Below, piece by piece: positions 1,198 to 20,271 of a stretch of 35,530 nucleotides of DNA. How positions within the stretch are numbered: the first letter of the stretch is position 1; each line of letters begins with the position of its first letter. Made by a program: the position numbers and the translations under genes. The notes under the pieces were generated by a model. That model was not told the DNA's origin. It made no database searches and was given only the letters and a program-made list of their open reading frames with translations. Where the stretch lies: contig JAFWIM010000163.1 of assembly GCA_017514845.1 (NCBI GenBank), positions 1 to 35,530 of the forward strand. The letters are read 5' to 3'. The stretch is from Lachnospiraceae bacterium. GTDB taxonomy: Bacteria > Bacillota > Clostridia > Lachnospirales > Lachnospiraceae.

Positions 1198-2565
1198 ATG
1201 GAACCAAGAGAATATGTACAGTCTTATATTGACAGAGCACGCGTCGCTCAGGCAGAATTCGAGAATTATTCTCAGGAACAGGTCGACAAAGCTGTCCGCG
1301 CAATCGGCAAGGCAGTTTTTGATGCAGCTGAGCCGCTGGCCAGACTTGCGGTAGACGAGACAAGAATGGGCAAGTATGAGGATAAGATCGCTAAGAACGC
1401 CGGCAAGACCAAAATTACCTGGTACAGACTGAAAGGTGTCAAGTCCCGTGGTATCATCGCTCGTCATGATGAGATCGGCATTATTGAAGTTGCTAAGCCG
1501 ATCGGCGTTATCGGATGCATTCCTCCGACAACAAACCCGACCATGACTCCGGTCCACAACGCTATGTGCGCGCTGAAGGGCGGAAACGCACTTCTTATCA
1601 GCCCGCATCCGCGTGCTAAGAAGACAGGTGTCGAAACTGTACGCCTTATGCGTGAGGCTCTTCAGGCAGTCGGAGCACCGGTCGATCTGATTCAGATCAT
1701 CCCGGACCCGACAGTTGAGATCTCCGGTCTGGTCATGTCAATGTGTGATGCAACAATCGCGACCGGCGGTCCGGGCATGGTCAAGGCAGCATATTCATCC
1801 GGCAAGCCGTCCTACGGTGTAGGCGCGGGAAATGTTCAGACTCTGGTAGACCTTGACGCAGATCTCGAGTTATCTGCAAAGCAGATCGCAAAGAGCCGTA
1901 CCTACGATAACGGTGTTCTCTGCACATGCGAACAGTGTGTACATGTACATAAGACACAGTATGACAAGATGGTGGAGCTGCTCAAGGCAGAGGGGGCTGC
2001 TTATATCAGCAAACCTGAAGAAGTTGACGCAATGCGCGCGGCTCTGTTCCCGAACGGCATGATCAATAAGGTCTGTGTAGGTGCAAGCGCTCACTTCATT
2101 GCAGCCCAGGCAGGTATCGAAGTTCCGGAAGATGCCAAATTTCTTATGATCCGCATTGAGAAGTACGGCAAGGAAGAGTTTCTCGCTAAAGAAAAGCTTT
2201 GCCCGGTCATCTGCATCACAGAGTATGAGACCTGGGAGGAGGCAGTTGCAAATGCAAAGACGAATCTGCTGAACGAAGGCGCAGGCCACAGCACGGTCGT
2301 CCGTTCCTTTAACAAAGAGCACATCGACTATGCCGGCGAACAGCTTCCGGTATCCCGTATCGGCGTCAATATGATCGGTTCCTCCGGACTTGGCGGCAGC
2401 TATGACAACGGACTCAACCCCACAGCTACACTTGGCTGCGGCAGCTGGGGCAACAACTCTATCAGTGAGAACCTCTGGTGGCATCATCTTGTAAACATCG
2501 CACGTATCGCGATCACGATCCCGGAGACGAAGATTCCGACGGATGAGGAAGTTTGGGGAGAATAA
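1198..2565 (+). CDS. CoA-acylating aldehyde dehydrogenase
   Basis: 455 residues, in the short acylating aldehyde dehydrogenase group (related to the AdhE N-terminal domain and sulfoacetaldehyde dehydrogenase). Predicted reaction: aldehyde + CoA + NAD(P)+ to acyl-CoA. The nucleotide-binding and substrate core is clear (PIGVIGCIPPTTNPT, then GGPGMVKAAYSSGKP and GVGAGN). The catalytic cysteine is Cys242 in DNGVLCTCEQ, at the place of the FDNGxxCxSEQ cysteine of AdhE. The C terminus ends soon after the catalytic domain, and I see no microcompartment-targeting extension. A strong AAGGAGG (1184-1190) precedes the ATG. It is the first gene of an operon with a phosphotransacylase and a kinase, so its acyl-CoA should feed substrate-level ATP formation. 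The true aldehyde is unknown. Confidence 0.9.
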   Translation: MEPREYVQSYIDRARVAQAEFENYSQEQVDKAVRAIGKAVFDAAEPLARLAVDETRMGKYEDKIAKNAGKTKITWYRLKGVKSRGIIARHDEIGIIEVAKPIGVIGCIPPTTNPTMTPVHNAMCALKGGNALLISPHPRAKKTGVETVRLMREALQAVGAPVDLIQIIPDPTVEISGLVMSMCDATIATGGPGMVKAAYSSGKPSYGVGAGNVQTLVDLDADLELSAKQIAKSRTYDNGVLCTCEQCVHVHKTQYDKMVELLKAEGAAYISKPEEVDAMRAALFPNGMINKVCVGASAHFIAAQAGIEVPEDAKFLMIRIEKYGKEEFLAKEKLCPVICITEYETWEEAVANAKTNLLNEGAGHSTVVRSFNKEHIDYAGEQLPVSRIGVNMIGSSGLGGSYDNGLNPTATLGCGSWGNNSISENLWWHHLVNIARIAITIPETKIPTDEEVWGE

Positions 2566-2566
2566 T

Positions 2567-3475
2567 ATGATTAATTCAATGCAGGACCTCCTTAAGGAGG
2601 CAGCGAAAGGTACACCGGGCAGACTGGCAGTCGCATGCGCGCAGGATGAATATGTGCTTGGAGCGGTCGTCAAAGCCAGCGAGCTTGGCATAATAACACC
2701 GATTCTTGTGGGAAACAAGACTGAAATTGTAAAAATACTCGAAGATCTCCACTGTGACGGGAATGCCTTCGAAATTGTCGATGTAGAGGACAAAACGGAG
2801 GCCTGCATGAAAGCGGCAGCCCTTGTGCGTGACGGCAAGGCAGATTTTCTGATGAAAGGATTCGTAGATACCGCAGTTATCATGAGAGCGGTACTGAACC
2901 GTGAGAACGGACTTCGAACAGGAAGAAGAATTACTCATGATCTGGTACTGGAAGTTCCTGGATATGACAAGCTCTTTCACGTAACAGACTCAGCAATGAG
3001 CGTTGCACCGACATTGGAAGAGAAGGCGGATATTATACGAAATGCCGTGACGGTCGCTCATGCGCTCGGAAATGAAAATCCGAAAGTCGCTGTCTGCTGC
3101 GCAGTAGAGAAGGTAAATCCGAAAATGCAGTGCACTGTCGACGCCGCAGAGCTTGCGGAGATGAACAAACGCGGTGAAATTACAGGCTGCATAGTGGAAG
3201 GACCGTTTGCCCTTGACAATGCGATATCACCTGAAGCTGCAGCTCACAAAGGTGTTAAGGGGGAAGTTGCGGGTAAGGCTGATATCATCATGGTTCCCGA
3301 CATCGAGGCCGGAAATCTTCTCATCAAGTCTATGGAGTATTTCGCTCATGCCAAAAAGGCCGGAGTTATCCTGGGTGCCAAGACACCTATAGCCCTGACA
3401 TCAAGAGCAAGTACTGCAGAATCCAAATTGTACACAATAGCAGTGGCCAGACTTGCTGCACGTATGCAGCAGTGA
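2567..3475 (+). CDS. ptb: Phosphate acyltransferase (phosphate butyryltransferase family)
   Basis: 302 residues when started at ATG 2567, which has GGGGAG six bases upstream and follows the dehydrogenase stop by one base. A longer in-frame start at 2543 would overlap the previous gene and lacks a better site. Family marks are the C-terminal run around ITGCIVEGPFALDNAIS, then VAGKADIIMVPDIEAGN, as in Ptb and Pta enzymes. Reaction: acyl-CoA + phosphate to acyl phosphate + CoA. Pairing with the next gene is the classical ptb-buk arrangement, but here the pair follows an acylating aldehyde dehydrogenase rather than a butyryl-CoA pathway. The acyl group may therefore be propionyl, butyryl or branched. 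Symbol given by family; substrate not proven. Confidence 0.88.
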   Translation: MINSMQDLLKEAAKGTPGRLAVACAQDEYVLGAVVKASELGIITPILVGNKTEIVKILEDLHCDGNAFEIVDVEDKTEACMKAAALVRDGKADFLMKGFVDTAVIMRAVLNRENGLRTGRRITHDLVLEVPGYDKLFHVTDSAMSVAPTLEEKADIIRNAVTVAHALGNENPKVAVCCAVEKVNPKMQCTVDAAELAEMNKRGEITGCIVEGPFALDNAISPEAAAHKGVKGEVAGKADIIMVPDIEAGNLLIKSMEYFAHAKKAGVILGAKTPIALTSRASTAESKLYTIAVARLAARMQQ

Positions 3476-3484
3476 GGAGGATGA

Positions 3485-4606
3485 ATGTACAGAGTAATCG
3501 TGTTGAACCCGGGTTCGACATCGACAAAAGTCGCATTCTATGAGGATGACAGACAGATTTTCTCCGAAAATCTGTCTCATCCTGCAGAAGAACTCGGTAA
3601 ATTTGAAAAAATAGTGGATCAGCTGCCTTACAGAAAAAAAGTCATTCTCGACATGCTTGAGGAAAAAGAGATTGATCTCATGAACGTGGACGCGTTTTCA
3701 GCAATCTGTACAGGGCTTCTTCCGATGCCCGGCGGTGTTTTTGAAGTCAACGAGATCATGTATGAACACGGATCCTATGGACCGGGCAGCCGCCATCCGG
3801 GAAACCTCGGACCGATGCTGGCAAGAGATTTTGCTGAAGAAACCGGCGCAAGGGCATTTGTAGTAGATCCAAGCAGTCTCGATGAGATGATACCGGAAGC
3901 CAGAATGACAGGCTTTGTTGAATTGATTCGAACAGAGAGAGGACATCCTCTTAATCAGAAAGCTGTCGGAAGAAAATATGCATCAGATACAGGCAAAAAG
4001 TATGAGGAGCTGAATCTCGTCATCGCTCATCTGGGAGGCGGTATATCGGTCAGTGCCCACGAGAAGGGAAAAATGATCGATTCTGTTGACAGTACAAGGG
4101 GAGAAGGCCGTATGGCTCCGACCAGGAGCGGTGCAGCACCGCTTGCGGATGTCGTTGAGATGTGCTATTCAGGGCAGTTCACAAAAGATGAAATGCTTGC
4201 CAAAATCATGAAACAGGGCGGCTGGACGGCCCACCTCGGCACTTCGGACGCGAGAGAAGTTGAGAAGAAAATCGCTTCCGGCGACAGCTACGCAGAGATT
4301 GTCTATAATACGACGGTTTTCCAGATCGGCAAAGATATCGCTGCAATGGCAGCTGCCCTGAAAGGCAAAGTTGACGCAGTCCTGATCACCGGTGGAATTG
4401 CCTATTCACGGAAGATGGTCGGAATGCTGGAAGAACAGATCGGATTTATCGCGCCGGTTCATGTATATCCGGGAGAATATGAGATGGACGCTCTGGCAGC
4501 GGGCGCTGTCAGGGTCCTGAGGGGCGAGGAGACTCCGCTTTCCTACAGCGGAAAGCCTGTATTCCCGGGATTCGAAGAACTGAGAAAGCAGAACGGGTAT
4601 GTATGA
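3485..4606 (+). CDS. buk: Butyrate kinase-family acyl kinase
   Basis: 373 residues, slightly longer than typical butyrate kinases (about 355-360). ASKHA-fold motifs are visible: the N-terminal phosphate loop VLNPGSTSTKVAFY, the second phosphate motif HLGGGISVSAHEKG followed by GEGRMAPTRSGAAP, and the adenosine loop VLITGGIAYS. Reaction: acyl phosphate + ADP to carboxylate + ATP, in the cytoplasm. GGAGG lies immediately after the upstream stop codon, four bases before ATG. The 3' end overlaps the next gene by four bases (ATGA), showing translational coupling. With the preceding two genes it forms an aldehyde-to-acid module that conserves one ATP per acyl group. Confidence 0.9.
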   Translation: MYRVIVLNPGSTSTKVAFYEDDRQIFSENLSHPAEELGKFEKIVDQLPYRKKVILDMLEEKEIDLMNVDAFSAICTGLLPMPGGVFEVNEIMYEHGSYGPGSRHPGNLGPMLARDFAEETGARAFVVDPSSLDEMIPEARMTGFVELIRTERGHPLNQKAVGRKYASDTGKKYEELNLVIAHLGGGISVSAHEKGKMIDSVDSTRGEGRMAPTRSGAAPLADVVEMCYSGQFTKDEMLAKIMKQGGWTAHLGTSDAREVEKKIASGDSYAEIVYNTTVFQIGKDIAAMAAALKGKVDAVLITGGIAYSRKMVGMLEEQIGFIAPVHVYPGEYEMDALAAGAVRVLRGEETPLSYSGKPVFPGFEELRKQNGYV

Positions 4607-6057: not shown

Positions 6058-7965
6058 ATGGGATACAGTTTTCTTGAACCGATTAAGGTCGGTCCCCACA
6101 CATTAAGAAATAGGATTATAAAGCCTGCCATGGCTGAGTATATCTGTAATGAAGACGGTACGATCAGTGATCAGTTCGTTGAGTTTTACAGAAGAATAGC
6201 AAAGGGTGGAGCAGCCCTGATTGTTCCGGGCATCTCATTGCTCGATGACACGCAGCACGAACCGCCATTTTTCCGCGGCACGAAGAATCCCCATCTCTAT
6301 GATGAAAAGTTCATCCCGGGACTTCGCCGTGTGATTGACGCAGTCCATGAGGAAGGCTCGCTGATCATGTTCCAGGTATGGCACAGCGGATGCTATGTCA
6401 CTCCCGGCGGACTTGTCTCGATGATCAATGAATTTTCAACAGAACAGATTCATGATCTTGAGAAGAAGTTCCTCAAGGCGACGGAAATTGTCAAGGCAGC
6501 GGGAGCGGATGGTGTTGAATTCCATATGGCTCACACTTATTTTGCGTCTCAGCTCCTCAGCCCGACATTCAACAAGCGAACGGATGAGTATGGCTGCGAT
6601 ACGATTGAGAACGCGACCAGATTTGCGCGGGAAGTAATCGAGCAGATCAATGAGAAATACTGTGATGATACATTTACCTGTATCGTAAAGCTTCAGGGCA
6701 GTGACTTCACAGAAGACGGCATCACTCCCGACCGTGCAGGCCAGGCTGCCGCTATATTGGAGAAGGCCGGTGCCAAAATGTTCACGGTGAACGCAGGCGG
6801 CGCGCTTGTCGGTTACAACTATATGAGTGACAACGGACATCAGCCCGAGGGCTGGAAAGCTGATTTTGCCGCGACTGTAAAGAAATATGTCAGTGTTCCG
6901 GTCGCGGCTACAGGAAACATCCGTCATCCGGATTATATTCATCAGCTGATCAGAGACGGAAGATGCGACGTCGTTGCTATGGGCCGTGAGTTCTACGCGG
7001 ATCCCGACTGGGTCAGGAAGTGCGAGGAAGGAAGAGAACAGGAACTTCGGTATTGTGTCTCCTGCCTGTACTGCTTTACTCAGGTCCCGGATGATGACTC
7101 TGTTCCGGGCTGTACGGTAAATCCGTATTGTAAATGCGAGAGAGCTGTTCCGGAACTTCGTAAGGATGGAGCAGGAAGAACCGTCGCTGTCATAGGTGCA
7201 GGACCTTCAGGCCTTGAGGCAGCCGTTGTACTTGCTGAGAGAGGCTTCAAGCCGGTCATCTTCGAGAGAAAGAACTATCTGGGAGGACTGGTGGATCTTG
7301 CGACAGTACCGCCCCACAAGAGTAAGCTTCGCTGGATCATTGACTACTATGAGAGACAGATCAGACGTCTTAACATAGAGGTGCGTTTGTCCTGTGAGGC
7401 GACAGTAGAAAAGCTGAAGGAAATTGAGCCATACGCCGTATTTGTGGCTACAGGCACGGATGAAGTTGTTCCGGGCAGGATCCCCGGTATTTTCGGTGAT
7501 AATGTCTACCGCGTGCGCGATGTCCTGGAGAAGAAAGTTTCTTTCAGGGGCAAAAAGATTGCAATCATCGGAGGCGGTATGACAGGTATCGAGACGGCAC
7601 ATTTCCTTGCTCTTAAGAATAACGACGTCACGGTCATAGAAATGCTGCCGGAGAAGACATTGCCGATTGCTGATAAGCTGAGCTTCGGAGACGCATTCAC
7701 AGACGGAGTTAAAATACATTATGAACATCAGCTGATGAACATTGAGCCGGATGGGATCAATGTGAAGGATCTTAAGACCGATACAGAAAAGAAGATTGAT
7801 GTCGACGCAGTTATCCTTTCAATGGGAATCCGCCCGAACATGACACTTCCGATCGCGGTCAAAGAAAATTTTGAAAATGTCATTTTCGTAGGCGATGCCA
7901 ATAAGCTTGGTAAGATACCGAACAATATCAGGTCAGGAGCGGACGCTGCGGCGGCACTTAAGTAA
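6058..7965 (+). CDS. NADH:flavin oxidoreductase, 2,4-dienoyl-CoA reductase / 2-enoate reductase type
   Basis: 635 residues in three parts. The N-terminal TIM barrel (about 1-330) is Old Yellow Enzyme-like, with KPAMAEY near the FMN and the VEFHMAHTYFASQLLSP active-site strand followed by NKRTDEYG. A cysteine cluster (CVSCLYC, later GCTVNP and CKCE, near residues 341-360) fits a 4Fe-4S site. The C-terminal FAD/NAD domain has two Rossmann motifs, VAVIGAGPSGLEAA and IAIIGGGMTGIETA. Relatives include 2-enoate reductase, BaiCD/BaiH and FadH, which reduce C=C bonds conjugated to a carbonyl. It is separated from the nitroreductase by 106 bases without a terminator, so it probably belongs to the same transcript. 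This suggests that an unsaturated intermediate occurs in the pathway (inference). Confidence 0.92.
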   Translation: MGYSFLEPIKVGPHTLRNRIIKPAMAEYICNEDGTISDQFVEFYRRIAKGGAALIVPGISLLDDTQHEPPFFRGTKNPHLYDEKFIPGLRRVIDAVHEEGSLIMFQVWHSGCYVTPGGLVSMINEFSTEQIHDLEKKFLKATEIVKAAGADGVEFHMAHTYFASQLLSPTFNKRTDEYGCDTIENATRFAREVIEQINEKYCDDTFTCIVKLQGSDFTEDGITPDRAGQAAAILEKAGAKMFTVNAGGALVGYNYMSDNGHQPEGWKADFAATVKKYVSVPVAATGNIRHPDYIHQLIRDGRCDVVAMGREFYADPDWVRKCEEGREQELRYCVSCLYCFTQVPDDDSVPGCTVNPYCKCERAVPELRKDGAGRTVAVIGAGPSGLEAAVVLAERGFKPVIFERKNYLGGLVDLATVPPHKSKLRWIIDYYERQIRRLNIEVRLSCEATVEKLKEIEPYAVFVATGTDEVVPGRIPGIFGDNVYRVRDVLEKKVSFRGKKIAIIGGGMTGIETAHFLALKNNDVTVIEMLPEKTLPIADKLSFGDAFTDGVKIHYEHQLMNIEPDGINVKDLKTDTEKKIDVDAVILSMGIRPNMTLPIAVKENFENVIFVGDANKLGKIPNNIRSGADAAAALK

Positions 7966-8075: not shown

Positions 8076-8564
8076 ATGAGTTTAAGTTTAAAGAAACAGT
8101 TCGAAGTAAGACTTACAGGATGCACAACAACACTCTGCGGACAGGATTATGAGCACAACGGACGCAGACAGCTGGTTCCCTGCCCCGAAGGTGAGATCAC
8201 AGGCCCGGATTTCCACGGATATATTATGCCGGCCGGTATCGATCATCAGCTTGTCAGAAGCGATGGTGTTGCTGAAATCAATGCTTCTTACGGTTTCCAG
8301 CTTGATGACGGTCGTACACTGTATATCCATGTTGAGGGCATCCGCACTGTTCCTAAGGAATATGCTGAAACCGTAAAGGCAGGCGGCGCTGTTGATCCGA
8401 AGCTTTTCTACTATGTGACTACGCCGAAGTTTGAAGTTTATGATGAGTCGCTCAAGTGGATGACCGAGAAGATCTTCGTGTGCGACGGAACCCGTCTTCC
8501 GGATGCTGTCCTTCTGACATACTACACAGTAGAACAGGTGAATGATCACCCGGCTCTTGGCTGA
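8076..8564 (+). CDS. DUF3237 (UPF0311) family protein
   Basis: 162 residues, cytoplasmic, no signal peptide. It matches the DUF3237 pattern: a beta-rich protein with a GYIMPAGIDHQL strand, then DDGRTLYIHVEGIR, a G-x-V-D-P-x-x-[FY]-YY motif (GGAVDPKLFYYVTTPKFEV) and a W-x-x-x-x-F stretch near the C terminus. The family is a small barrel, and I know of no firm general function. AGGAG precedes the ATG by eight bases. It is the last gene of the operon starting at 1198 and follows the ene-reductase. Co-occurrence with an ene-reductase hints at an isomerase, lyase or binding role for a small carbonyl compound, but this is a guess. Confidence 0.85.
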   Translation: MSLSLKKQFEVRLTGCTTTLCGQDYEHNGRRQLVPCPEGEITGPDFHGYIMPAGIDHQLVRSDGVAEINASYGFQLDDGRTLYIHVEGIRTVPKEYAETVKAGGAVDPKLFYYVTTPKFEVYDESLKWMTEKIFVCDGTRLPDAVLLTYYTVEQVNDHPALG

Positions 8565-8829: not shown

Positions 8830-9348
8830 ATGAGAGGAAAAGCGGGAATTATATCATTTTCAGGTTTCACCAGACGCTATGCGGAATGGATTGCTGAAGA
8901 CACCGGTCTTACAATCTGTGATTTGAAGGAAATCGAAAAGGATGATCTGAAATCAGATTTCCTGCTCATCGGCGTTCCGATCCACAGTCAGGAACTGTGC
9001 GGAATCAAAAAAATACGAAAGATTCTCAGGGAGAAAAGCTCCGACACACGTATCATCCTGTTTGCCACAGGGCTTCGCTGCGGTGATGAAAAAGTAAAAG
9101 AGAGTATCTTGAAATACAATTTCAGGGAACAGCGGCCTGACGCGTTCTTTTACTTTACCGGAGGGCTTGATCAGGACAGGCTCACAGCGAATGACAAAAT
9201 CCTGTTAAAGCTGCAACAAATTATGATCGGCAGGCACCCGGATCGCACGGAAAGTGATCTGGAGCTGCTGAGAAAATTAAGGAGCGGAGGAGATTTTACA
9301 GACAGAGATGAAGTGCAGCCGCTTATTGATTATCTGAAACTGCTGTAA
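8830..9348 (+). CDS. Flavodoxin-like protein, putative reductant for the GRE system
   Basis: 172 residues. The N terminus has a flavodoxin-type strand and phosphate loop (GIISFSGFTRRYAEWIAEDTG), resembling the Flavodoxin_5/HemG-like group, in which 'SKTGFT' is common. The T-G pair is reduced to SGFT here. A central strand DFLLIGVPIHSQELCGIKK and a later RIILFATGLRCG fit the flavodoxin fold. The C terminus is charged and helical. First gene of the operon leading to the GRE; the next gene begins 38 bases on. Radical SAM activases need a low-potential electron donor, commonly flavodoxin, so it may supply that electron. The ribosome binding site is weak (AGG). Electron-donor role is inferred. Confidence 0.72.
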   Translation: MRGKAGIISFSGFTRRYAEWIAEDTGLTICDLKEIEKDDLKSDFLLIGVPIHSQELCGIKKIRKILREKSSDTRIILFATGLRCGDEKVKESILKYNFREQRPDAFFYFTGGLDQDRLTANDKILLKLQQIMIGRHPDRTESDLELLRKLRSGGDFTDRDEVQPLIDYLKLL

Positions 9349-9386: not shown

Positions 9387-9992
9387 ATGAACAAAAAAGG
9401 TCTTGTGAACTGGTCCATCTGGATCGGAGTAGTGTCCGGTATTTACTGTGCGATTTACCTTCTGACCGTAGGAGCGTACACGGGAGCCAAGGTGCTGCCC
9501 GGCTGGCAGATTGTGTATGCGACTTTTACAGCGCTTCCTATTTATTTCACTGCAGGTGCAAAGAGATCGGAATTTTTTAATTATATCTGCAGTTATCTCT
9601 GCGGTGTTCTCTGGGCGATGGGTTATCTCTGGATCATGGACAGAATTGCAGTCCTCGGAGTTCCGGCCTGGCTCAATATCGCAGTGGTCGTCGCAATCGT
9701 ATGCGTGATTGAATGCGCAATTCACTTCACCCTCCCGTCTTCACTGCCGTTCAACGTAGTTCCGGCACATTTCGGAGCTATATCGAACTCTTTCTGGTGC
9801 TCCAATATGACTATCGCAATCATGGGACCGGGCAGGACAGCAGTCGGCGGCTTCTACAATTTTAAGGCATATCCGATTCTTGCCATTACACTCTGCGGCG
9901 GTGTGGTCCTTGGCCTCTGCTGCAACGAAGGATTGAATTTTATCGACTCTGAGACCGGCAACTGGAAGTGGCCGGGCAAGAGCTCGAAATAA
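9387..9992 (+). CDS. DUF1097 family integral membrane protein
   Basis: 201 residues with about five hydrophobic segments (near residues 7-30, 38-57, 63-83, 90-115 and 163-186) and no cleavable signal. It resembles the DUF1097 family (E. coli YcdZ is a member). No transport motif is established for the family. Between segments is a conserved-looking loop, PFNVVPAHFGAISNSFW followed by a glycine-rich turn. AAGGAG lies before the ATG, and the GRE gene starts 49 bases after its stop. As the only membrane protein in the GRE regulon here, it is the natural candidate for uptake of the substrate or export of a product. That role is inference from context. Confidence 0.8.
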   Translation: MNKKGLVNWSIWIGVVSGIYCAIYLLTVGAYTGAKVLPGWQIVYATFTALPIYFTAGAKRSEFFNYICSYLCGVLWAMGYLWIMDRIAVLGVPAWLNIAVVVAIVCVIECAIHFTLPSSLPFNVVPAHFGAISNSFWCSNMTIAIMGPGRTAVGGFYNFKAYPILAITLCGGVVLGLCCNEGLNFIDSETGNWKWPGKSSK

Positions 9993-10041: not shown

Positions 10042-12300
10042 ATGAGTGATGCAAAATGTGCCGGCGCCAAGCTTGGAAATGAACTCAGATCCGGTTATGC
10101 AGCGAAGATGGGAAGCACGAAGCGGGTGCAGGAACTGAATGGTATGCTTCATTCCAATCGTCCGAATGTAGATATCACACGCGCAAGAGCTTTCACAAAA
10201 GTTTATCGCGAGACAGAAGGCCTTCCGGCACTTCTTCGCCGCTATAAAGCAATCGCTGAGGTTTATCGTACACTTTCAGATAACGTTTATGATTATGAGC
10301 AGCTTGTCGGATGGCCGACAAAGCGCATCCGCGGTGCAAACTTCGCAGTCGAGCTTCACGCTCACTGGATGAAGGACGATCTCAAGAATCTTCGTGACCG
10401 TACATATGATCCGTTCGAGATTTCGGATGAAGACTACAAGGAACTTGAAGAGGATATTCTTCCGTACTGGCAGGATAAGACGGCAGCTGCCCAGTGGGCA
10501 CATTATGTCACACCGGAAGAGTGGGACAGAGCTCAGTTCGGCGGCGTATCGGATGTCTCTAACTACATCTGCGCGAACGGTTCACATTTCATCCCCGCAT
10601 GGACAGACGTAATTAAGCATGGCTTCCAGAAGTACTACAATGAAGCTAAGGTCCTTCTCGACGAGCTTGATCCGAACGATCCGACCTCTGTCGATAAGAG
10701 ATACTTCTATCAGGGCATCATTGAAGTCTGCGAGGCAATTAAGAACTGGGCAGATCGCCTCTCCGCAGCCTGCCTGAGAAAAGCTGAGACAGAAAAAGAT
10801 CCGGTCCGCAAGAAAGAGCTGGAAGATATGGCGGCCATGATGAGAAGGGTTCCGTGGGGACCGGCAACATCTTTCCATGACGCAGTGGAGACTTCCTGGG
10901 TCGTATGCTTCTTCCTGTTCGTAGAGGGCGCAGGCCCGTCCATTACCTGGGGACGCTGGGATCAGTACATGTATCCGTACTATAAGAGAGACATCGAAGC
11001 CGGTATCATCACACCGGAGAGCGCAATGGAGCTTATTGAGGAAATGTACATCAAGGTTACTTCCAACGTATGGTTCCAGTCCACACAGATGGCTTACATC
11101 TTCGGCGGTTACTATCGCTATCCGCATCTTGATGTCGGCGGTCTCGATGAGAACGGAAGAGACGCAAGCAACGAGCTGTCTTATCTGTGCCTGCGCGCTA
11201 TGCGCTATGTCAAGACAACATCACCGGCGGTCTGCCTGATGCTGCATCAGAAAACTCCGGATTCTCTGCTCCGCGAAGCATGCGAGCTTTCCGTTGACGG
11301 ACACGGACATCCGAGCTTCTTTGACGTAGAAACACTGTACAAGATGCTTGAGAACCGCGGCGCGTGCGCAAACATGCACAGCAATTACACAAGCTATGAT
11401 ATTAAAAAGTACGGAAGCCCGATCGGCTGCGTAGAGCCCGGTGTCGAGGGCATGCAGTACGGTCATACCGATTCAGGTATCATTAATGTTGCGGGCTGCA
11501 TCTATGCTGCAGTATGCGACGGCAAGAAGGCTAAGGGCGTTGATGGAACACGCTGCGGCCAGGTCGTAACTTATGCGAGCGGCGCTCCGGAACTCTTTGA
11601 CACATATGAGAAGTTTGAAAAGGTGTGCCTGGATCAGATTGAATACGCAATCAAAGAGTGCCACTCCAACCTTATTATCGTTGAGAAGCTTCTCGCTGAA
11701 CAGTTCAACCTTCCGACATTTACAATGCTGCTTGACGGTGCCCTTGAAAAAGGTCTTGACGCTACAAACGGCGGCGCGAAAGTCAATATCGGTCCGACAA
11801 TCCAGATGAGCGGTTTCGGAACTGCAGTCGACTCCATGGCAGCTATCAAGAAGGTTGTTTATACAGATCACGAGGCTACTCTTCGCGATGTCGCAAATGC
11901 TATTGAAGCGAACTTCGTAGGCTATGAAGAACTCAGAGCAAAACTGATCGCTGCTCCGAAGTATGGCAATGATGATGATTTCGCGGATGACATCGCTTGC
12001 AGAGTATGGTCATTCTTTGGTGACACGGTCAATCATCTCAAGATGTATCGTGGCAATTATTGCGATGCGGCAATTCAGATGGTACAGTCCAATGTCGGTT
12101 ACGGCGCTATGACAGGTGCGACTCCGAACGGACGTCTTGCAGGTCAGCCGACATCTGATACAATGTCAGCATCTCAGCAGGCAGATACGAATGGACCGCT
12201 GGCAGCGGCAAGAAGCTATGGCAAACTTGATTACACTAAGTACAGCAACGGCACGCTGCTGAACATGTGGATCAGCCAGTCCGAAATGATGGAAGTTTAA
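10042..12300 (+). CDS. Split glycyl radical enzyme, catalytic barrel subunit
   Basis: 752 residues. It has the glycyl radical enzyme (PFL-like) barrel but stops before the glycyl radical domain. Visible landmarks: an N-terminal helical part (residues 35-80, ITRARAFTKVYRETEG), the DASNELSYLCLRAM segment, the active-site loop with Cys463 and Glu465 in GCVEPG, and the late motif ATPNGRLAG, then NGPLAAARS and NGTLLNMW just before the stop. The Cys-X-Glu arrangement is that of GRE eliminases and decarboxylases (choline lyase, diol dehydratases, arylacetate decarboxylase) and not of pyruvate formate-lyase, which has Cys-Cys. Intact relatives are about 790-900 residues, and this protein plus the next (98) gives 850. 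AAGGAGG lies ten bases before the ATG. Substrate unknown; an aldehyde product is suggested by the regulon. Confidence 0.93.
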   Translation: MSDAKCAGAKLGNELRSGYAAKMGSTKRVQELNGMLHSNRPNVDITRARAFTKVYRETEGLPALLRRYKAIAEVYRTLSDNVYDYEQLVGWPTKRIRGANFAVELHAHWMKDDLKNLRDRTYDPFEISDEDYKELEEDILPYWQDKTAAAQWAHYVTPEEWDRAQFGGVSDVSNYICANGSHFIPAWTDVIKHGFQKYYNEAKVLLDELDPNDPTSVDKRYFYQGIIEVCEAIKNWADRLSAACLRKAETEKDPVRKKELEDMAAMMRRVPWGPATSFHDAVETSWVVCFFLFVEGAGPSITWGRWDQYMYPYYKRDIEAGIITPESAMELIEEMYIKVTSNVWFQSTQMAYIFGGYYRYPHLDVGGLDENGRDASNELSYLCLRAMRYVKTTSPAVCLMLHQKTPDSLLREACELSVDGHGHPSFFDVETLYKMLENRGACANMHSNYTSYDIKKYGSPIGCVEPGVEGMQYGHTDSGIINVAGCIYAAVCDGKKAKGVDGTRCGQVVTYASGAPELFDTYEKFEKVCLDQIEYAIKECHSNLIIVEKLLAEQFNLPTFTMLLDGALEKGLDATNGGAKVNIGPTIQMSGFGTAVDSMAAIKKVVYTDHEATLRDVANAIEANFVGYEELRAKLIAAPKYGNDDDFADDIACRVWSFFGDTVNHLKMYRGNYCDAAIQMVQSNVGYGAMTGATPNGRLAGQPTSDTMSASQQADTNGPLAAARSYGKLDYTKYSNGTLLNMWISQSEMMEV

Positions 12301-12325
12301 CTTCTGAAGAAAGGAGGAAATCATT

Positions 12326-12622
12326 ATGCAGACAATTCGAGAGACAGGTCTTAACACACCGGAAGGTACTTATAAAATGCCGACCTACAAAGAGGCTGGC
12401 ATGAGAAACTTCATGAATCTTGTTCGTACAATGGTGAACGACTATGGCGTATACCATGTACAGTTCAATACCATTGACAAGTCTACTCTTGTAGATGCCA
12501 AGAAGCACCCTGAGAAGTATCCTACTCTTATGGTACGTGTTGCTGGCTACAGTGTATACTGGACAGACATCGCTGAGAGAGTGCAGGATGATATTATCCA
12601 CAGAACGGAACATCAGTTTTAA
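12326..12622 (+). CDS. Split glycyl radical enzyme, glycyl radical domain subunit
   Basis: 98 residues, matching only the C-terminal glycyl radical domain of GREs: HVQFNTIDKSTLVDAKKHPE, then RVAGYSVYW with the radical glycine at Gly74, and the closing VQDDIIHRTEH. It begins where intact enzymes continue after the LLN strand of the barrel, so with the previous gene it completes one enzyme. It is in a different frame, with AAGGAGG at 12311-12317 eight bases before the ATG. Both the upstream stop (TAA, 12298) and an in-frame TGA at 12305 rule out simple read-through. Unlike YfiD/GrcA, a spare part for a complete PFL, this seems to be the only radical domain available to its partner. A terminator follows at 12728. 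Confidence 0.93.
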   Translation: MQTIRETGLNTPEGTYKMPTYKEAGMRNFMNLVRTMVNDYGVYHVQFNTIDKSTLVDAKKHPEKYPTLMVRVAGYSVYWTDIAERVQDDIIHRTEHQF

Positions 12623-12727
12623 TCTGTGAGTTGGAGCCTCCGATGGACGGCCTCCTTCTTTCCGATAGACAGATGGGCAGGATGTGAGCTATAGGTTCTG
12701 ACCGTCTGGCCGGCGGGATCATTCGTT

Positions 12728-12761
12728 ATGCTGCAGATGGCTTAGCCGTCTGCAGCATTTT
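12728..12761 (+). terminator. Rho-independent terminator of the GRE operon
   Basis: A 14-bp stem (12728-12741 with 12745-12758, one G-T pair) with a TTA loop, then TTTT. Very stable. It separates the GRE operon from the activase gene, which therefore needs its own promoter. No gene is seen in 12623-13155; the stretch holds this terminator, two repeat elements and the activase promoter. Confidence 0.85.
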
Positions 12762-12762
12762 C

Positions 12763-12856
12763 AATCTTCAACACAGGATTCTCGTGACGTAAGTCTACGA
12801 GGAATGTGCAAAACAAACTTGTCTTCAACATGGGTTTAAAGCCTGTGTTGAAGATT
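12763..12856. repeat. Fold-back element with 15-bp perfect inverted ends
   Basis: AATCTTCAACACAGG (12763-12777) is the exact complement of 12842-12856. The 64 bases between can form CTCGT/ACGAG with inner GAC/GTC, and a weaker AAAC/GTTT arm. It begins two bases after the GRE terminator T-run and abuts the family 2 repeat copy. Confidence 0.65.
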
Positions 12857-12857
12857 G

Positions 12858-12981
12858 AGCCTCAGCTACACAATGCTCCACTGGAGCATTGTTACGCATG
12901 CTTGGCACGGCGGATCGCAGAGCTGCGCAAAGGGAGACGCACAGAGTGCGTCGCGCAGCTCGCGCGCGATCAGAGATCGCG
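12858..12981. repeat. Structured intergenic repeat, family 2, copy 2
   Basis: Same first hairpin as 23-45 (here 12870-12892), and the same order of three hairpins. The second is GAGCTGCGC (12920-12928) with 12953-12961, enclosing GACGCAC/GTGCGTC. The third is CGCGATC (12965-12971) with 12975-12981. Stems 2 and 3 differ in sequence from copy 1 but still pair. Confidence 0.75.
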
Positions 12982-13032
12982 ATTTACTATAATACGTATT
13001 TCAGCGTAGTCACATTCGCTGTGGACGGTTCT

Positions 13033-13060
13033 TTGTTATTTTGTATATGTGACATATAAT
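13033..13060 (+). promoter_or_regulatory. Activase promoter with a different palindrome
   Basis: TTGTTA (13033-13038), a 16-base spacer and TATAAT (13055-13060). A palindrome with 7-bp arms, TATATGT-G-ACATATA (13044-13058), runs into the -10. Its half sites are 1 base apart, against 3 in the WATGTAGNACATW sites, so it may bind another regulator or be a variant. Confidence 0.55.
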
Positions 13061-13155
13061 GGTATTATGGACTGCAGTGAAGAGAAGCAAAACAGGGTCT
13101 TTGGATAACACATTGCGGGCAGGAGGCACTGTGTAAAGAGAGAGGATGGAAAAAA

Positions 13156-14121
13156 ATGGCTGAAAAGAAAGAAGCTATCGTATTCGATTTTGGTCACTTC
13201 AGAAATACGGATGGGTACGGAATACGCACGATGATATTTTTTAAGGGCTGCCCGCTTCGCTGCAAATGGTGCTCGAATCCGTTCGGTCTTTCTGTTGCCC
13301 CGCAGCTTGCTGTCAACAGGGAGCGGTGCGTCGGATGCGGAATGTGCGTAAAACTGTGTTCCAAAGGGGTAAATCGGATCAATCCGGAAGATCATAAAGT
13401 CGAGATGGATTTCGATAAATGTAAAGCCTGCGGACTCTGTGTACAGCTTTGTCCGCAAAAGTGTCGTCAGATCTCAGGTACCAAGTATACGGCTGAGCAG
13501 CTGTATAAGAAAGTGCAGCGGGAACTGACTTTCACGAGGAGAGATCGCGGCGGACTGACTCTTTCCGGCGGAGAAGTCCTGATGCAGCACGAAATCGCTG
13601 CGGAACTGCTGAAGATCTGTAAGAGAGATTATATTGATACCTGCATAGAGACGTCAGCATATGCGAGATGGGAACACCTGGTGGAGGTGGCCCAGTACTG
13701 TGATACAGTCTTTGTTGACATGAAGCATATTGACTCGGATCGGCACAAAGAGATCACCGGAATCCCTAATGAACTTATATTGGAAAACATAAGGAAGCTG
13801 TGTGAATACATGTCAGAGCGCGGTAAGCGGGTGATCATACGCAGGCCGTTTATCCCGGGATATAATGATGAGGAATCCTGCACGATTGGGATTGCGAAGT
13901 TTGTAGCGACGCTTTCGGGCAGACCGGAAATTAACATACTGCCGTACCATAATCTGGGAGAGCTCAAATATAAAATGATAGGCTCGGAGTGCGAAGTACA
14001 GGGCCTCAATATGATGAAAAAGAAGGACGAACCGATCGTGAGGTGCGCAGAGCTCTGCAGGCAGTACGCTCCGGAGAATAGGGTAAGTGTAGGAGGAGAA
14101 GCTATAGAGTATCCTGATTGA
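13156..14121 (+). CDS. Glycyl radical enzyme activating enzyme (radical SAM activase)
   Basis: 321 residues. The radical SAM cluster motif CPLRCKWC places Cys32, Cys36 and Cys39, spaced CX3CX2C as in all GRE activases. A ferredoxin-like insert follows with two cysteine groups (Cys58, 61, 64, 68 and Cys89, 92, 95, 99), fitting two extra 4Fe-4S clusters, as in activases of eliminase-type GREs but not of PFL. LTLSGGEVLMQ is the SAM-binding GGE motif. Role: reductive cleavage of SAM to make the glycyl radical, here presumably on Gly74 of the separate small subunit. It is transcribed apart from the GRE, 533 bases downstream, with its own promoter. A fold-back terminator follows at 14147. Confidence 0.93.
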   Translation: MAEKKEAIVFDFGHFRNTDGYGIRTMIFFKGCPLRCKWCSNPFGLSVAPQLAVNRERCVGCGMCVKLCSKGVNRINPEDHKVEMDFDKCKACGLCVQLCPQKCRQISGTKYTAEQLYKKVQRELTFTRRDRGGLTLSGGEVLMQHEIAAELLKICKRDYIDTCIETSAYARWEHLVEVAQYCDTVFVDMKHIDSDRHKEITGIPNELILENIRKLCEYMSERGKRVIIRRPFIPGYNDEESCTIGIAKFVATLSGRPEINILPYHNLGELKYKMIGSECEVQGLNMMKKKDEPIVRCAELCRQYAPENRVSVGGEAIEYPD

Positions 14122-14345: not shown

Positions 14346-15491
14346 TTAAAAGGCTTTCCTATAAAGTTCAATGACGTCTTTCCTGGTCGTCTGCCGCGGA
14401 TTCACCTTTATATTGCCGCTGGCCATCGCGTCATCTGCCATTTTTTCGAACAGGTCCTCTGTCACGCCGACTTCTGAGAGTGAGGCGGGAAGTGAAAGTT
14501 CAGCAAGCAGGCTGCGTGCTTCATCCGCAAGCATCGACGGGACGAAAGGACGGTCCTGTCTGCCCTGGTGGATATAGTTATATATTTTTTCGTAGCGTCC
14601 ATTGTCTGCAAGCGAATTGTATTCTACGATGGTCGGGAGAAGGATTGCATTTGCAACGCCGTGCGGTACGTGGAAATAAGCGCTGACCGGATGAGACATA
14701 GCGTGCACGTTGCCAAGCCTTGCCCAGGCGAAAGCCAGACCGGCAAAATTGCTTCCCGTCATCATGTCACTGGCTGCGTCAAGGTCGCTGCGGTTGGCGA
14801 CAAACCTGCGGATACTTCTGCCGATCAGTTCAAGAGCTTTCTCCGCCATGGCATCGGAAAATGGGTTCGCCCAGAGAGATGTATAGGCTTCCCAGGCATG
14901 GATCATCGCGTCTATCCCGCAGGCGGCGGCAATTCCGGCCGGCGCGGTCATGATAAGCTGCGGATCGAGGATGGCAAAATGGGGGAGAATCTTGTAGCTG
15001 TATACAGTGAGCTTATAATTTCTGGAAGTATCCGTGATGACTGAGAACGGCGTTACTTCACTTCCTGTTCCCGCAGTTGTCGGAATTGCGATAATCGGCA
15101 CAATTTCACCGGGAACTTTATCTGCGCCTTCATATTCGGTGATGGAGCCGCCGTAGCGGGCCTGTACGCCGACAGCCTTAGCCACATCCATTGGTGAGCC
15201 ACCGCCCAAGGCTACAAGCGCCTGGGCTTCGCAATCTTTATAGACTGCTACAGCTGCGTCAACTACTTCCGTGGCAGGATCCGGCAGAACATCAAGGAAT
15301 TCTGTGACACGCACACCTGCGGACATAAGAATGTCGGATACTTTCTTTACAACTCCGATTTTTTCGAGTCCGCGATCTGAAATAAGCATTACGGAATCGA
15401 TGGATTCTTTAGAGAGTATAGACGGTAATTTTTCAAGGCTGTTGTAGCCAAAGATGAGTTCCTGCGGGACTTTGAACATAAAATCAGACAT
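14346..15491 (-). CDS. Iron-type (group III) alcohol dehydrogenase
   Basis: 381 residues from ATG 15491, chosen because GGAGG (15501-15497) lies five bases before it. The longer frame start at 15521 would sit at the predicted transcription start. Family marks: GGGSPMDVAKAV for NAD(P), then TTAGTGSEVTPFSVI, and the metal ligands in CGIDAMIHAWEAY (Asp, His) and GNVHAMSHPVSAYFHVPHG (His, His). Reaction: reversible aldehyde/alcohol conversion with NAD(P)H. The promoter carries the same operator as the GRE and acylating-dehydrogenase operons, which places it in the same pathway. It would reduce part of the aldehyde to an alcohol and regenerate NAD+ used by the acylating branch. Confidence 0.93.
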   Translation of the reverse strand: MSDFMFKVPQELIFGYNSLEKLPSILSKESIDSVMLISDRGLEKIGVVKKVSDILMSAGVRVTEFLDVLPDPATEVVDAAVAVYKDCEAQALVALGGGSPMDVAKAVGVQARYGGSITEYEGADKVPGEIVPIIAIPTTAGTGSEVTPFSVITDTSRNYKLTVYSYKILPHFAILDPQLIMTAPAGIAAACGIDAMIHAWEAYTSLWANPFSDAMAEKALELIGRSIRRFVANRSDLDAASDMMTGSNFAGLAFAWARLGNVHAMSHPVSAYFHVPHGVANAILLPTIVEYNSLADNGRYEKIYNYIHQGRQDRPFVPSMLADEARSLLAELSLPASLSEVGVTEDLFEKMADDAMASGNIKVNPRQTTRKDVIELYRKAF

Positions 15492-15523
15492 ATTGACCTC
15501 CAAATATAAAACGCAGTACATAG

Positions 15524-18806: not shown

Positions 18807-18835
18807 TTTACCACCGGGGCTTTGCGTGGTATACT
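18807..18835 (+). promoter_or_regulatory. Promoter of the cobalamin-controlled locus
   Basis: TTTACC (18807-18812), 17 bases, TATACT (18830-18835), about 35 bases before the riboswitch aptamer. Confidence 0.6.
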
Positions 18836-18870
18836 TTTCGTATCGCGGGGAAGTCCCGCTAAAACTAAAT

Positions 18871-19047
18871 AGGTATACGGTGCCTGCGCGCGGGTTTAGC
18901 GCGGAGGGTAAAAGGGAAACAGGTGCAAATCCTGTACGATCTCGTCACTGTGAAAGGGGAGTGCGGCGCACAAAAATGTCACTGGCGAAAGCCGGGAAGG
19001 CAGCGCGGCGCATGATGATCCAAAGCCAGGAAACCTGCCGTATGCCG
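18871..19047 (+). promoter_or_regulatory. Cobalamin riboswitch
   Basis: Closing stem GGTATACGG (18871-18879) with CCGTATGCC (19038-19046). Hallmarks in order: GGTGCC-type start, TAAAAGGGAA, GGTGCAAATCC, CACTGTG, GCCGGGAAGGC-type turn, and the B12 box AAGCCAGGAAACCTGCC (19024-19040). It senses adenosylcobalamin or a related corrinoid. With the terminator downstream it should switch off the locus when corrinoid is plentiful. Confidence 0.95.
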
Positions 19048-19125
19048 GTACAGGAGCATCCGCTCCGGATCACGAGGCATTGGTCGTACCATCATCCCTG
19101 CGGGGCAGCTGCGGGGATAAGTGCG

Positions 19126-19148
19126 CCCTCCCATGCGGAGGGTTTTTT
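19126..19148 (+). terminator. Riboswitch-controlled terminator
   Basis: CCCTCC, loop CATGC, GGAGGG, then TTTTTT. Lies between the aptamer and the AAAGGAGG of the first gene, as expected for transcription attenuation. Confidence 0.88.
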
Positions 19149-19197
19149 CCTGCATGCCTTTTTTGATCCGCGGCGGGAAAATCAAAGGAGGCACAAC

Positions 19198-20271
19198 ATG
19201 AAAAGAAGAATTGCATCATTATTACTCAGCATAGCCGTGATCGGCACGCTCATCGGATGCGGCGGCGCGTCAGAATCTGCCGCCCTGGCAGGGGAGACTG
19301 CGGATACAGCTGAGTCGTCATCTGCCACAGCAGAGGAATCCGCGCCGGAGTCCTTAGATTCCGCGGCAGAGTCCGCCGAAATCGAGGCTGAGAGCGGAGA
19401 GGCAGAGGAAGCGGACGAAGAGAATTATGAGACGGGCGACGCATCCCTCGATGATCCGGGCAACCAGGATGAGATCGGAGAGAATGAGATTCTCGTTGTG
19501 AGCTTCGGCACGAGCTTCAATGACAGCAGAAGGCTTACGATCGGCAGCATCGAAAACGCGATCCGTGAAGCGTTCCCGGACTGGTCCGTCCGCAGGGCTT
19601 TCACGAGCCAGATCATTATCGATCATGTCAATAAGCGTGACGGCGTCAAGATCGATAATGTGAAAGAAGCTCTTGACCGGGCTGTGGACAATGGAGTAAA
19701 GAACTTGGTCGTGCAGCCGACACACCTCATGGCAGGCTTAGAGTACCATGATCTTGAGGAGGAGGTCATGTCGTACGCGGATGCATTTGAAAGTATCACC
19801 ATGGGTGAGAACCTTCTCGCAGAGGATGGAGATTTCGAGGAAGTTGCGAAAATCATCACAGCGCGGACAGCAGAATATGATGACGGCGAGACCGCCATCT
19901 GCTTCATGGGCCACGGAACAGAGGCGGAATCCAATGCCGTATATGCTAAAATGCAGGAAGTTCTCACGGCTGACGGTTTCGAGAATTACTTTGTAGGAAC
20001 TGTCGAAGCTACTCCGTCCCTTGAAGATGTGATGGCTGCTGTCGGCGAGGGAGAGTACAAGAGAGTAGTCCTCATGCCGCTCATGGTCGTCGCCGGGGAT
20101 CATGCAAATAACGATATGGCGGGCGATGAGGAAGACTCCTGGAAGAGCCAGTTCGAAGCGGAAGGCTACAGCGTGGAGTGTGTGCTGGAAGGCCTTGGCC
20201 AGCAGCCGGAGATTCAGGAGCTGTATGTGGAGCATTTGCAGAAGTTCGTGGAATCCGCTCTCGCTGAATAA
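19198..20271 (+). CDS. CbiK-like cobaltochelatase domain on a secreted lipoprotein
   Basis: 357 residues from ATG 19198 (AAAGGAGG six bases before); the longer frame from 18826 runs through the riboswitch and is not real. Signal peptide with lipobox LIGC (Cys21), then about 65 Ser/Glu/Ala-rich residues as a wall-spanning linker, then a CbiK fold beginning ILVVSFGTSFNDS. The metal site seems intact: Glu182 (LEYHD), His239 (MGHGTEAESN) and His302 (GDHANND). Spacings of 57 and 63 match the Glu/His/His triad known in CbiK. Cytoplasmic CbiK inserts Co2+ into sirohydrochlorin for anaerobic B12 synthesis. An outside location under a cobalamin riboswitch suggests cobalt or tetrapyrrole capture at the surface instead. 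Confidence 0.88.
   Translation: MKRRIASLLLSIAVIGTLIGCGGASESAALAGETADTAESSSATAEESAPESLDSAAESAEIEAESGEAEEADEENYETGDASLDDPGNQDEIGENEILVVSFGTSFNDSRRLTIGSIENAIREAFPDWSVRRAFTSQIIIDHVNKRDGVKIDNVKEALDRAVDNGVKNLVVQPTHLMAGLEYHDLEEEVMSYADAFESITMGENLLAEDGDFEEVAKIITARTAEYDDGETAICFMGHGTEAESNAVYAKMQEVLTADGFENYFVGTVEATPSLEDVMAAVGEGEYKRVVLMPLMVVAGDHANNDMAGDEEDSWKSQFEAEGYSVECVLEGLGQQPEIQELYVEHLQKFVESALAE

Follow-up and report, generated by a model that had tools for sequence, protein, structure and literature searches.

Does a glycyl radical enzyme (GRE) have to be a single chain? GREs are oxygen-sensitive enzymes of anaerobic bacteria and are normally made as one protein. The question is raised by a locus of a Lachnospiraceae bacterium (assembly GCA_017514845.1, contig JAFWIM010000163.1), where a stretch of 35,530 nucleotides, hereafter the window, carries a gene for a GRE barrel and, directly after it, a second gene for the glycyl radical domain. 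An initial reading of the letters without database searches, which we call the sequence-only reading, had proposed a natural two-gene enzyme. Our follow-up analysis makes it very probable that the separate barrel and radical-domain genes make one two-subunit GRE.

We confirmed both open reading frames (ORFs) in the ORF list of the window. The large gene (10042–12300, + strand) encodes a 752-residue barrel subunit that matches PF02901 in Pfam at 2.2e-160 and has no radical domain. Its Cys463 (codon 11428–11430) and Glu465 (codon 11434–11436) sit in the motif IGCVEPG, as proposed; the proposal that the protein ends right after NGTLLN was slightly off, with 11 more residues following. The small gene (12326–12622, + strand) encodes 98 residues, with a conserved N-terminal extension of about 21 residues and with Gly74 (codon 12545–12547) inside RVAGYSVYW. 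The Gly_radical domain is shared out over the two proteins: positions 2–45 of its 106 match the C-terminus of the large protein, and positions 48–105 match most of the small one at 1e-18, bearing out the reading of the radical domain as a gene of its own. Between the genes lies a 25-nucleotide spacer (12301–12325, + strand) with the Shine-Dalgarno sequence AAGGAGG eight bases 5′ of the ATG. The small frame is +1 relative to the large frame, and, as first read, both are closed, the large by TAA at 12298 and the small by TGA at 12305. Together with a nearby radical S-adenosylmethionine (SAM) activase, the window holds three features of the GRE superfamily: a barrel like that of pyruvate formate-lyase (PFL) with its thiyl cysteine, an RVxGY motif, here on the separate 98-residue protein, and the activase.

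The same large/small pair occurs elsewhere, as one clade. In a collection of 84,980 species genomes, peptide patterns taken from the large protein, which pick up close relatives only, hit 30 loci, five of them in the window clade: Collinsella ihumii (85% identity), an Atopobiaceae metagenome-assembled genome (MAG; 83%), Clostridium viride (75%), the Clostridiales MAG SUG277 (74%), and L032, from a Coriobacteriaceae MAG, whose large gene is cut by the contig end (L and G numbers denote loci and genomes). The others drop to about 30–35% identity; 16 of these 25 are fused, and nine are short, cut or without a recoverable motif. Among 61 near relatives of the window, a search with the large protein found a clade member only in the window's own genome, with 15 others at 28–34% identity among the matches listed; 13 of 14 loci outside the own genome were fused. 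Whole-genome searches found clade members in three of 250 genomes of the C. viride family (C. viride, G197 and G258), two of 140 in the G064 family, both already known, and one of 43 in the C. ihumii genus (C. ihumii itself). The window's order gave one of 246 (its own genome) and its phylum two of 398 (its own and G1004). In total, 10 pairs, patchily scattered, reside in nine genomes from Bacillota and Actinomycetota, with G197 carrying two in tandem (L068:8058-15054; barrels 84% and small subunits 96% identical). Large and small genes are adjacent in all 10, all 10 are cut in the same loop, and a fused member of the clade was looked for and found in none of the 10. The recurrence of one cut in such distant bacteria argues for a working design rather than damage. 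Mobile-element carriage was not seen, with no relative confirmed in IMG/VR; the 10 plasmid records that match are all about 31–33% identical.

The junction between the genes varies freely. Across the nine pairs with a complete large gene, TAA, TAG and TGA all serve as the stop, all three relative frames occur, the gaps span 17–52 nucleotides, and a Shine-Dalgarno-like motif is present in each of the nine gaps examined. Were a single polypeptide made after all, by programmed frameshifting or stop readthrough, one might point to the four of nine measured pairs that share a frame and to the single TAA between the genes of C. viride; yet the mixture of frames and stops, the gaps of up to 52 nucleotides, the ribosome-binding motifs and the closure of both frames in the window make this highly improbable.

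Both genes are under purifying selection. Between the window and seven other pairs (L032 and L160 left out), protein identity is 69–87% and synonymous differences run at 0.76–0.99 per site, near saturation, while the ratio of nonsynonymous to synonymous differences per site (pN/pS) is 0.14–0.26 for the large gene and 0.10–0.23 for the small gene. Ratios this low in both genes exclude decay. The draft state of the window's assembly, 83% complete in 259 contigs, leaves room for an artefact of sequencing or assembly or for a pseudogene of recent origin; against both stand the selection on the two genes and the same split in the records of C. viride DSM 6836 and Collinsella ihumii GD8 and in one genome listed as 100% complete, and we regard this as the least credible account of all. 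On the strength of the varied stops, frames and gaps and the low pN/pS, we rejected the frameshift, readthrough and pseudogene readings. The earlier claim of a designed two-gene enzyme, its barrel without a radical domain, therefore holds up, and finding the same arrangement in nine further pairs from eight further genomes excludes chance or damage. The small proteins are alike in length (nine of 10 have exactly 98 residues) and in sequence, with 9 of 21 residues invariant in the N-terminal extension and 59 of 77 in the domain across the 10 proteins. Distance matrices of large and small proteins correlate (r=0.66 over 36 pairs), as shared ancestry alone could produce.

Phylogeny places the large subunits together. 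In a quick tree of 38 rows with several long branches, from which L032, cut by its contig end, and L160 were left out, the eight window-clade large proteins form one side of a branch with a Shimodaira–Hasegawa-like approximate likelihood ratio test (SH-aLRT) support of 100 and a stem of 2.08. The clade joins 14 fused GREs (SH-aLRT 91); the nearest fused GREs are about 34% identical to the clade barrels. Shuffling the labels on the tree gave no information, 37 of 500 shuffles coming out as low, because only 10 rows were labelled.

Is the small protein a part of this enzyme, or a spare part for another one? Stand-alone radical domains of the YfiD/GrcA type are known and repair oxygen-cleaved PFL, as described in the accessible text of PMC8683613, and a small protein of this kind might serve some other, complete GRE beside an inactive or decaying large protein. 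A complete GRE is indeed present in C. viride (G062), which has one besides the pair, PFL-like in the tree, and in C. ihumii (G061), which combines a fused GRE with a split PFL and an NrdD-like protein; and at 83% completeness the window's assembly could be missing the partner. However, Gly_radical hits nothing besides the pair in that assembly (G000) and in the SUG277 genome (G063; completeness not told), which argues against a spare part, and the third match in G064 is an NrdD-like protein by reading. A second full-length GRE, named by the sequence-only reading as what would overturn it, was not found in either the window's 83% complete assembly or SUG277. The small protein also scores far below the NCBIfam cut-offs for GrcA3 (71.7 against 158 bits), GrcA2 (65.3 against 145) and GrcA (45.1 against 170), purifying selection acts on the large gene, whose active-site residues are invariant, and the two genes stay adjacent in every pair. 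We therefore consider a spare-part role very unlikely and retain the two-subunit enzyme.

A second family of GREs has been cut in a similar way. In C. ihumii, the large PFL gene exceeds the TIGR01255 cut-off (1086.3 against 994.2 bits) though covering only positions 1–665 of 744, and the small gene exceeds that of NCBIfam GrcA3 (165.6 against 158). Most of the genus of C. ihumii has this split PFL: in 38 of its 42 genomes the N-terminal part of Gly_radical lies in a frame of ~690–830 residues and the C-terminal part a short distance away on that contig, the exceptions being G465, G484, G487 and G493; the window split is thus not unique. Thirteen of 59 genomes of the class have a GrcA3 hit over the cut-off, each with a truncated PFL directly 5′. 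In the G064 family such hits occur in 51 of 140 genomes; many others of that family show a GrcA3 match of ~102–110 bits within a frame of ~760–850 residues, probably a fused PFL. Overall, a truncated PFL lies directly 5′ at 36 of the 37 GrcA3 loci read, including the 13 of the class (L070:3996-6455 on the − strand, L104–L116 and L134–L158; L157 was left out by a length filter, and no large gene was found at L145). The search for such domains in the window's phylum covered 118 other genomes, and the matches listed there include one other stand-alone radical domain, a 74-residue frame with an internal stop (G859).

The PFL cut falls between E. coli PFL residues 680 and 683. Like the window pair, the Coriobacteriia split PFL has separate barrel and radical-domain genes divided at an equivalent loop (Gly_radical numbering about 51/49 in PFL and 46/48 in the window; against glycerol dehydratase, the window clade's large subunit aligns as far as residue 705, and its small subunit begins to align at 713). 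It differs in being a canonical PFL, with a CCVS active site, a TIGR01255 score over the cut-off and a large subunit that in most cases ends in a Cys-rich tail. Such tails (L070 and L104–L158; CDACN, CDCC, DCGCC and CACEAD, for example) are absent from the window clade and could form a metal or redox site. In the tree, the split PFL of C. ihumii clusters with a fused PFL (support 100), so its origin is independent of the window clade, and it is an independent precedent for the window split. Two PDB entries, 38lb (739 residues) and 38la (687 residues), are PFL matches without a radical domain. The first, deposited as 'Formate acetyltransferase', aligns along the C. ihumii split PFL into the tail of the latter, and its own tail resembles that of GrcA3 locus L137, so the structure of a split-PFL large subunit has probably been solved already as 38lb.

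How do these enzymes compare with described systems? 4-Hydroxyphenylacetate decarboxylase and benzylsuccinate synthase resemble the window enzyme in consisting of more than one gene product, but their large chains keep the radical domain and their small subunits are other proteins. YfiD/GrcA and phage T4 Y06I are closer in that a stand-alone radical domain works in trans on a barrel (PMC8683613, accessible text); they rescue an oxygen-cleaved but complete PFL, whereas the window barrel has no domain of its own. According to the same portion of that source, YfiD and Y06I were the only spare parts validated for PFL as of 2021. To regard every known stand-alone radical domain as a spare part, as the sequence-only reading did, is incomplete, because Coriobacteriia have a split PFL, with a probable large-subunit structure in 38lb. 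Titles and abstracts of the open-access literature searched, subscription literature lying largely outside, contained no description of a window-type split or of the split PFL, and the portions available of PMC8473912, PMC13252398 and PMC11528403 held nothing on split GREs. The PFL counterpart exists in databases and appears undescribed in that literature. Two published observations that may bear on it come from Fannyhessea vaginae: 1 mM hypophosphite cuts its formate production by ~90% (PMC12208373, where it is called Atopobium vaginae; partial text), and in one medium its ten most strongly down-regulated genes include both grcA and pflB, listed side by side (PMC11979175, partial text).

What reaction might the window enzyme carry out? 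His182, Pro299, Ser300, Cys463, Glu465 and Asp477 are invariant in all nine large proteins. In an alignment through fused relatives, Cys463, Glu465, His182, Asp477 and Ser300 match catalytic positions of glycerol and propanediol dehydratase. Glycerol dehydratase (1r8w), propanediol dehydratase (5i2a) and CutC (5fau) share with the clade the fold, the Cys-x-Glu motif and the activase type, and the diol enzymes share its His and Asp; they differ in being one chain with a covalent radical domain, at about 33–35% identity to the C. viride model. The clade also departs from diol-dehydratase-like GREs by an insert before the Cys loop and by Pro299 in place of a His: at the position of glycerol dehydratase His281, a substrate contact, all nine proteins have this proline, and a His281-type contact was not found. 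Nor is the protein identified as CutC (TIGR04394, 490.8 against 1050 bits), with His182 aligned at the choline-site Asp216, or as PFL (TIGR01255, 96.4 against 994.2 bits), its site reading GCVEP rather than Cys-Cys. Judged by these residues, the pair is most likely a two-subunit dehydratase-type eliminase. A non-diol GRE reaction, namely a C–N lyase, a decarboxylase or an enzyme acting on an ether- or lactone-derived substrate, is a serious if less probable competitor; speaking against it are the combination of Cys-x-Glu, His182 and Asp477, the set found in diol dehydratases, and the window's aldehyde dehydrogenase of acylating type, which suggests an aldehyde product.

In the two-subunit model, the large protein would supply the barrel up to the loop preceding the last helix and strand, with thiyl Cys463 and base Glu465, and the small protein would supply that helix and strand, the glycyl radical loop with Gly74, and the C-terminal helix, docking where other GREs have their covalent radical domain. 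The nearby activase would install the radical on Gly74, and the bound small subunit would hand it to Cys463 for a 1,2-elimination of the diol-dehydratase type, as His182, Ser300, Cys463, Glu465 and Asp477 suggest. The aldehyde could then pass to aldehyde dehydrogenase, phosphotransbutyrylase and kinase, yielding ATP by substrate-level phosphorylation, or to alcohol dehydrogenase. Structure prediction is compatible with this arrangement. With the two C. viride proteins joined into a single chain, the model is that of a normal closed GRE (predicted template modelling score 0.89), and its best matches among PDB entries to 2026-04-08 were CutC, glycerol dehydratase and others, with ~785–792 residues superposed at 1.4–1.6 Å, mostly to the end of the radical domain; 38la and 38lb did not appear in this comparison.

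Several points weigh against the model. Because the prediction used one covalent chain and an alignment containing fused relatives, its very set-up favours docking. In the small protein, residues 1–21 have no counterpart in fused GREs in our alignment and might be a docking element; the first 14 have a predicted local distance difference test score below 50 in the C. viride model, leaving this idea without structural support. E. coli PFL truncated at 695 was not rescued by YfiD and showed weaker binding and lower activation (PMC8683613, accessible text), which means that a detached domain does not dock on every shortened barrel. Pro299 in place of His281 implies that substrate contacts differ from those of known diol dehydratases. 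Finally, the presumed pathway genes are not common to all members: the ORF lists for C. viride, SUG277, G258 and G1004 show little beyond large gene, small gene and activase, plus unrelated-looking neighbours.

The activase itself lies at 13156–14121 (+ strand) and encodes 321 residues with ferredoxin-type 4Fe-4S motifs (Fer4 matches). It scores 279.1 bits against the TIGR02494 cut-off of 174.35, confirming the GRE activase that the sequence-only reading had assigned to the pair; tight linkage is lacking in the window, where 533 nucleotides (12623–13155) separate it from the small gene. At L004, L030, L032, L068 and L160 it follows the pair closely (~20–115 nucleotides 3′). By pattern matches, the window gap contains inverted repeats (12728–12758 and 12761–12858) and a promoter-like site (13033–13060), possibly the activase's own promoter. 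The region 12728–12858 consists of nested inverted repeats, with 20-nucleotide arms 95% complementary and a 15-nucleotide hairpin; its 19-nucleotide core is not repeated elsewhere in the window.

Upstream of the pair, on the same strand, lie genes for an Old-yellow-enzyme/BaiCD-like flavoenzyme (6058–7965; PF00724 and PF07992), a DUF3237 protein (8076–8564; PF11578, 9.9e-33), a flavodoxin-domain protein (8830–9348; PF12724, 6.8e-10) and a DUF1097 membrane protein (9387–9992; PF06496, 6.7e-6). By Pfam or by reading, all four types stand beside the pair in the window, L030 and L068, and at least Old-yellow-enzyme-like and DUF1097-like genes are near it in L003. C. viride, SUG277, G258 and G1004 have ORF lists in which these genes were not seen; in the GC-rich loci, antisense ORFs hide some genes. 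Farther upstream are an aldehyde dehydrogenase (1198–2565, +; PF00171), probably CoA-acylating since its best NCBIfam matches are CoA-acylating enzymes, all under cut-offs, a phosphate butyryltransferase (2543–3475, +; NF004472, 402.2 bits, cut-off 399) and a butyrate kinase family protein (3485–4606, +; TIGR02707, 428.2 bits, cut-off 289.1); downstream is an iron-containing alcohol dehydrogenase (14346–15521, −; PF00465 and PF25137). In other pairs, an alpha/beta-hydrolase-like ORF (L160:7810-8727, by reading) and a metallo-beta-lactamase-fold lactonase-like gene (L005:9156-9932) stand directly 5′ of the barrel gene, possibly hinting at an ester or lactone precursor. PinX, a DUF3237 protein, is a predicted lignan-acid decarboxylase, and the available part of PMC12607616 gives the name decarboxylase to PhcF and PhcG, which are related to it. 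Of the leads to a substrate, those from DUF3237, lactonase and hydroxyproline are all weak, and none extends to every member. Elsewhere in the window, a cobalamin riboswitch (18861–19056, +; 99.9 bits) falls inside the start of the mechanical ORF 18826–20271, whose real gene start is therefore probably downstream.

Why detach a radical domain? To be activated, a GRE must turn its buried glycine outward so that the activase can reach it, and this glycine is also where oxygen cuts the chain and inactivates the enzyme. The sequence-only reading had suggested, as possible uses of a separate radical subunit, replacement after oxygen damage, an adjustable ratio and activation off the barrel. A truly dissociable domain could be activated off the barrel without domain opening and then dock; once cleaved by oxygen it could be exchanged, or one domain could serve several barrels, and two unrelated GRE families might have converged on the same cut for this purpose; we offer the idea tentatively and think it rather unlikely. 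The two tandem barrels of G197, with their two nearly identical small subunits, are a case that bears on sharing. If the two-subunit model is true, a separate 98-residue radical carrier would allow activation, docking, radical transfer and repair to be studied and titrated singly. For the common gut Actinomycetota, it suggests that proteins annotated as 'autonomous glycyl radical cofactor GrcA3' are an enzyme subunit and not a repair part.

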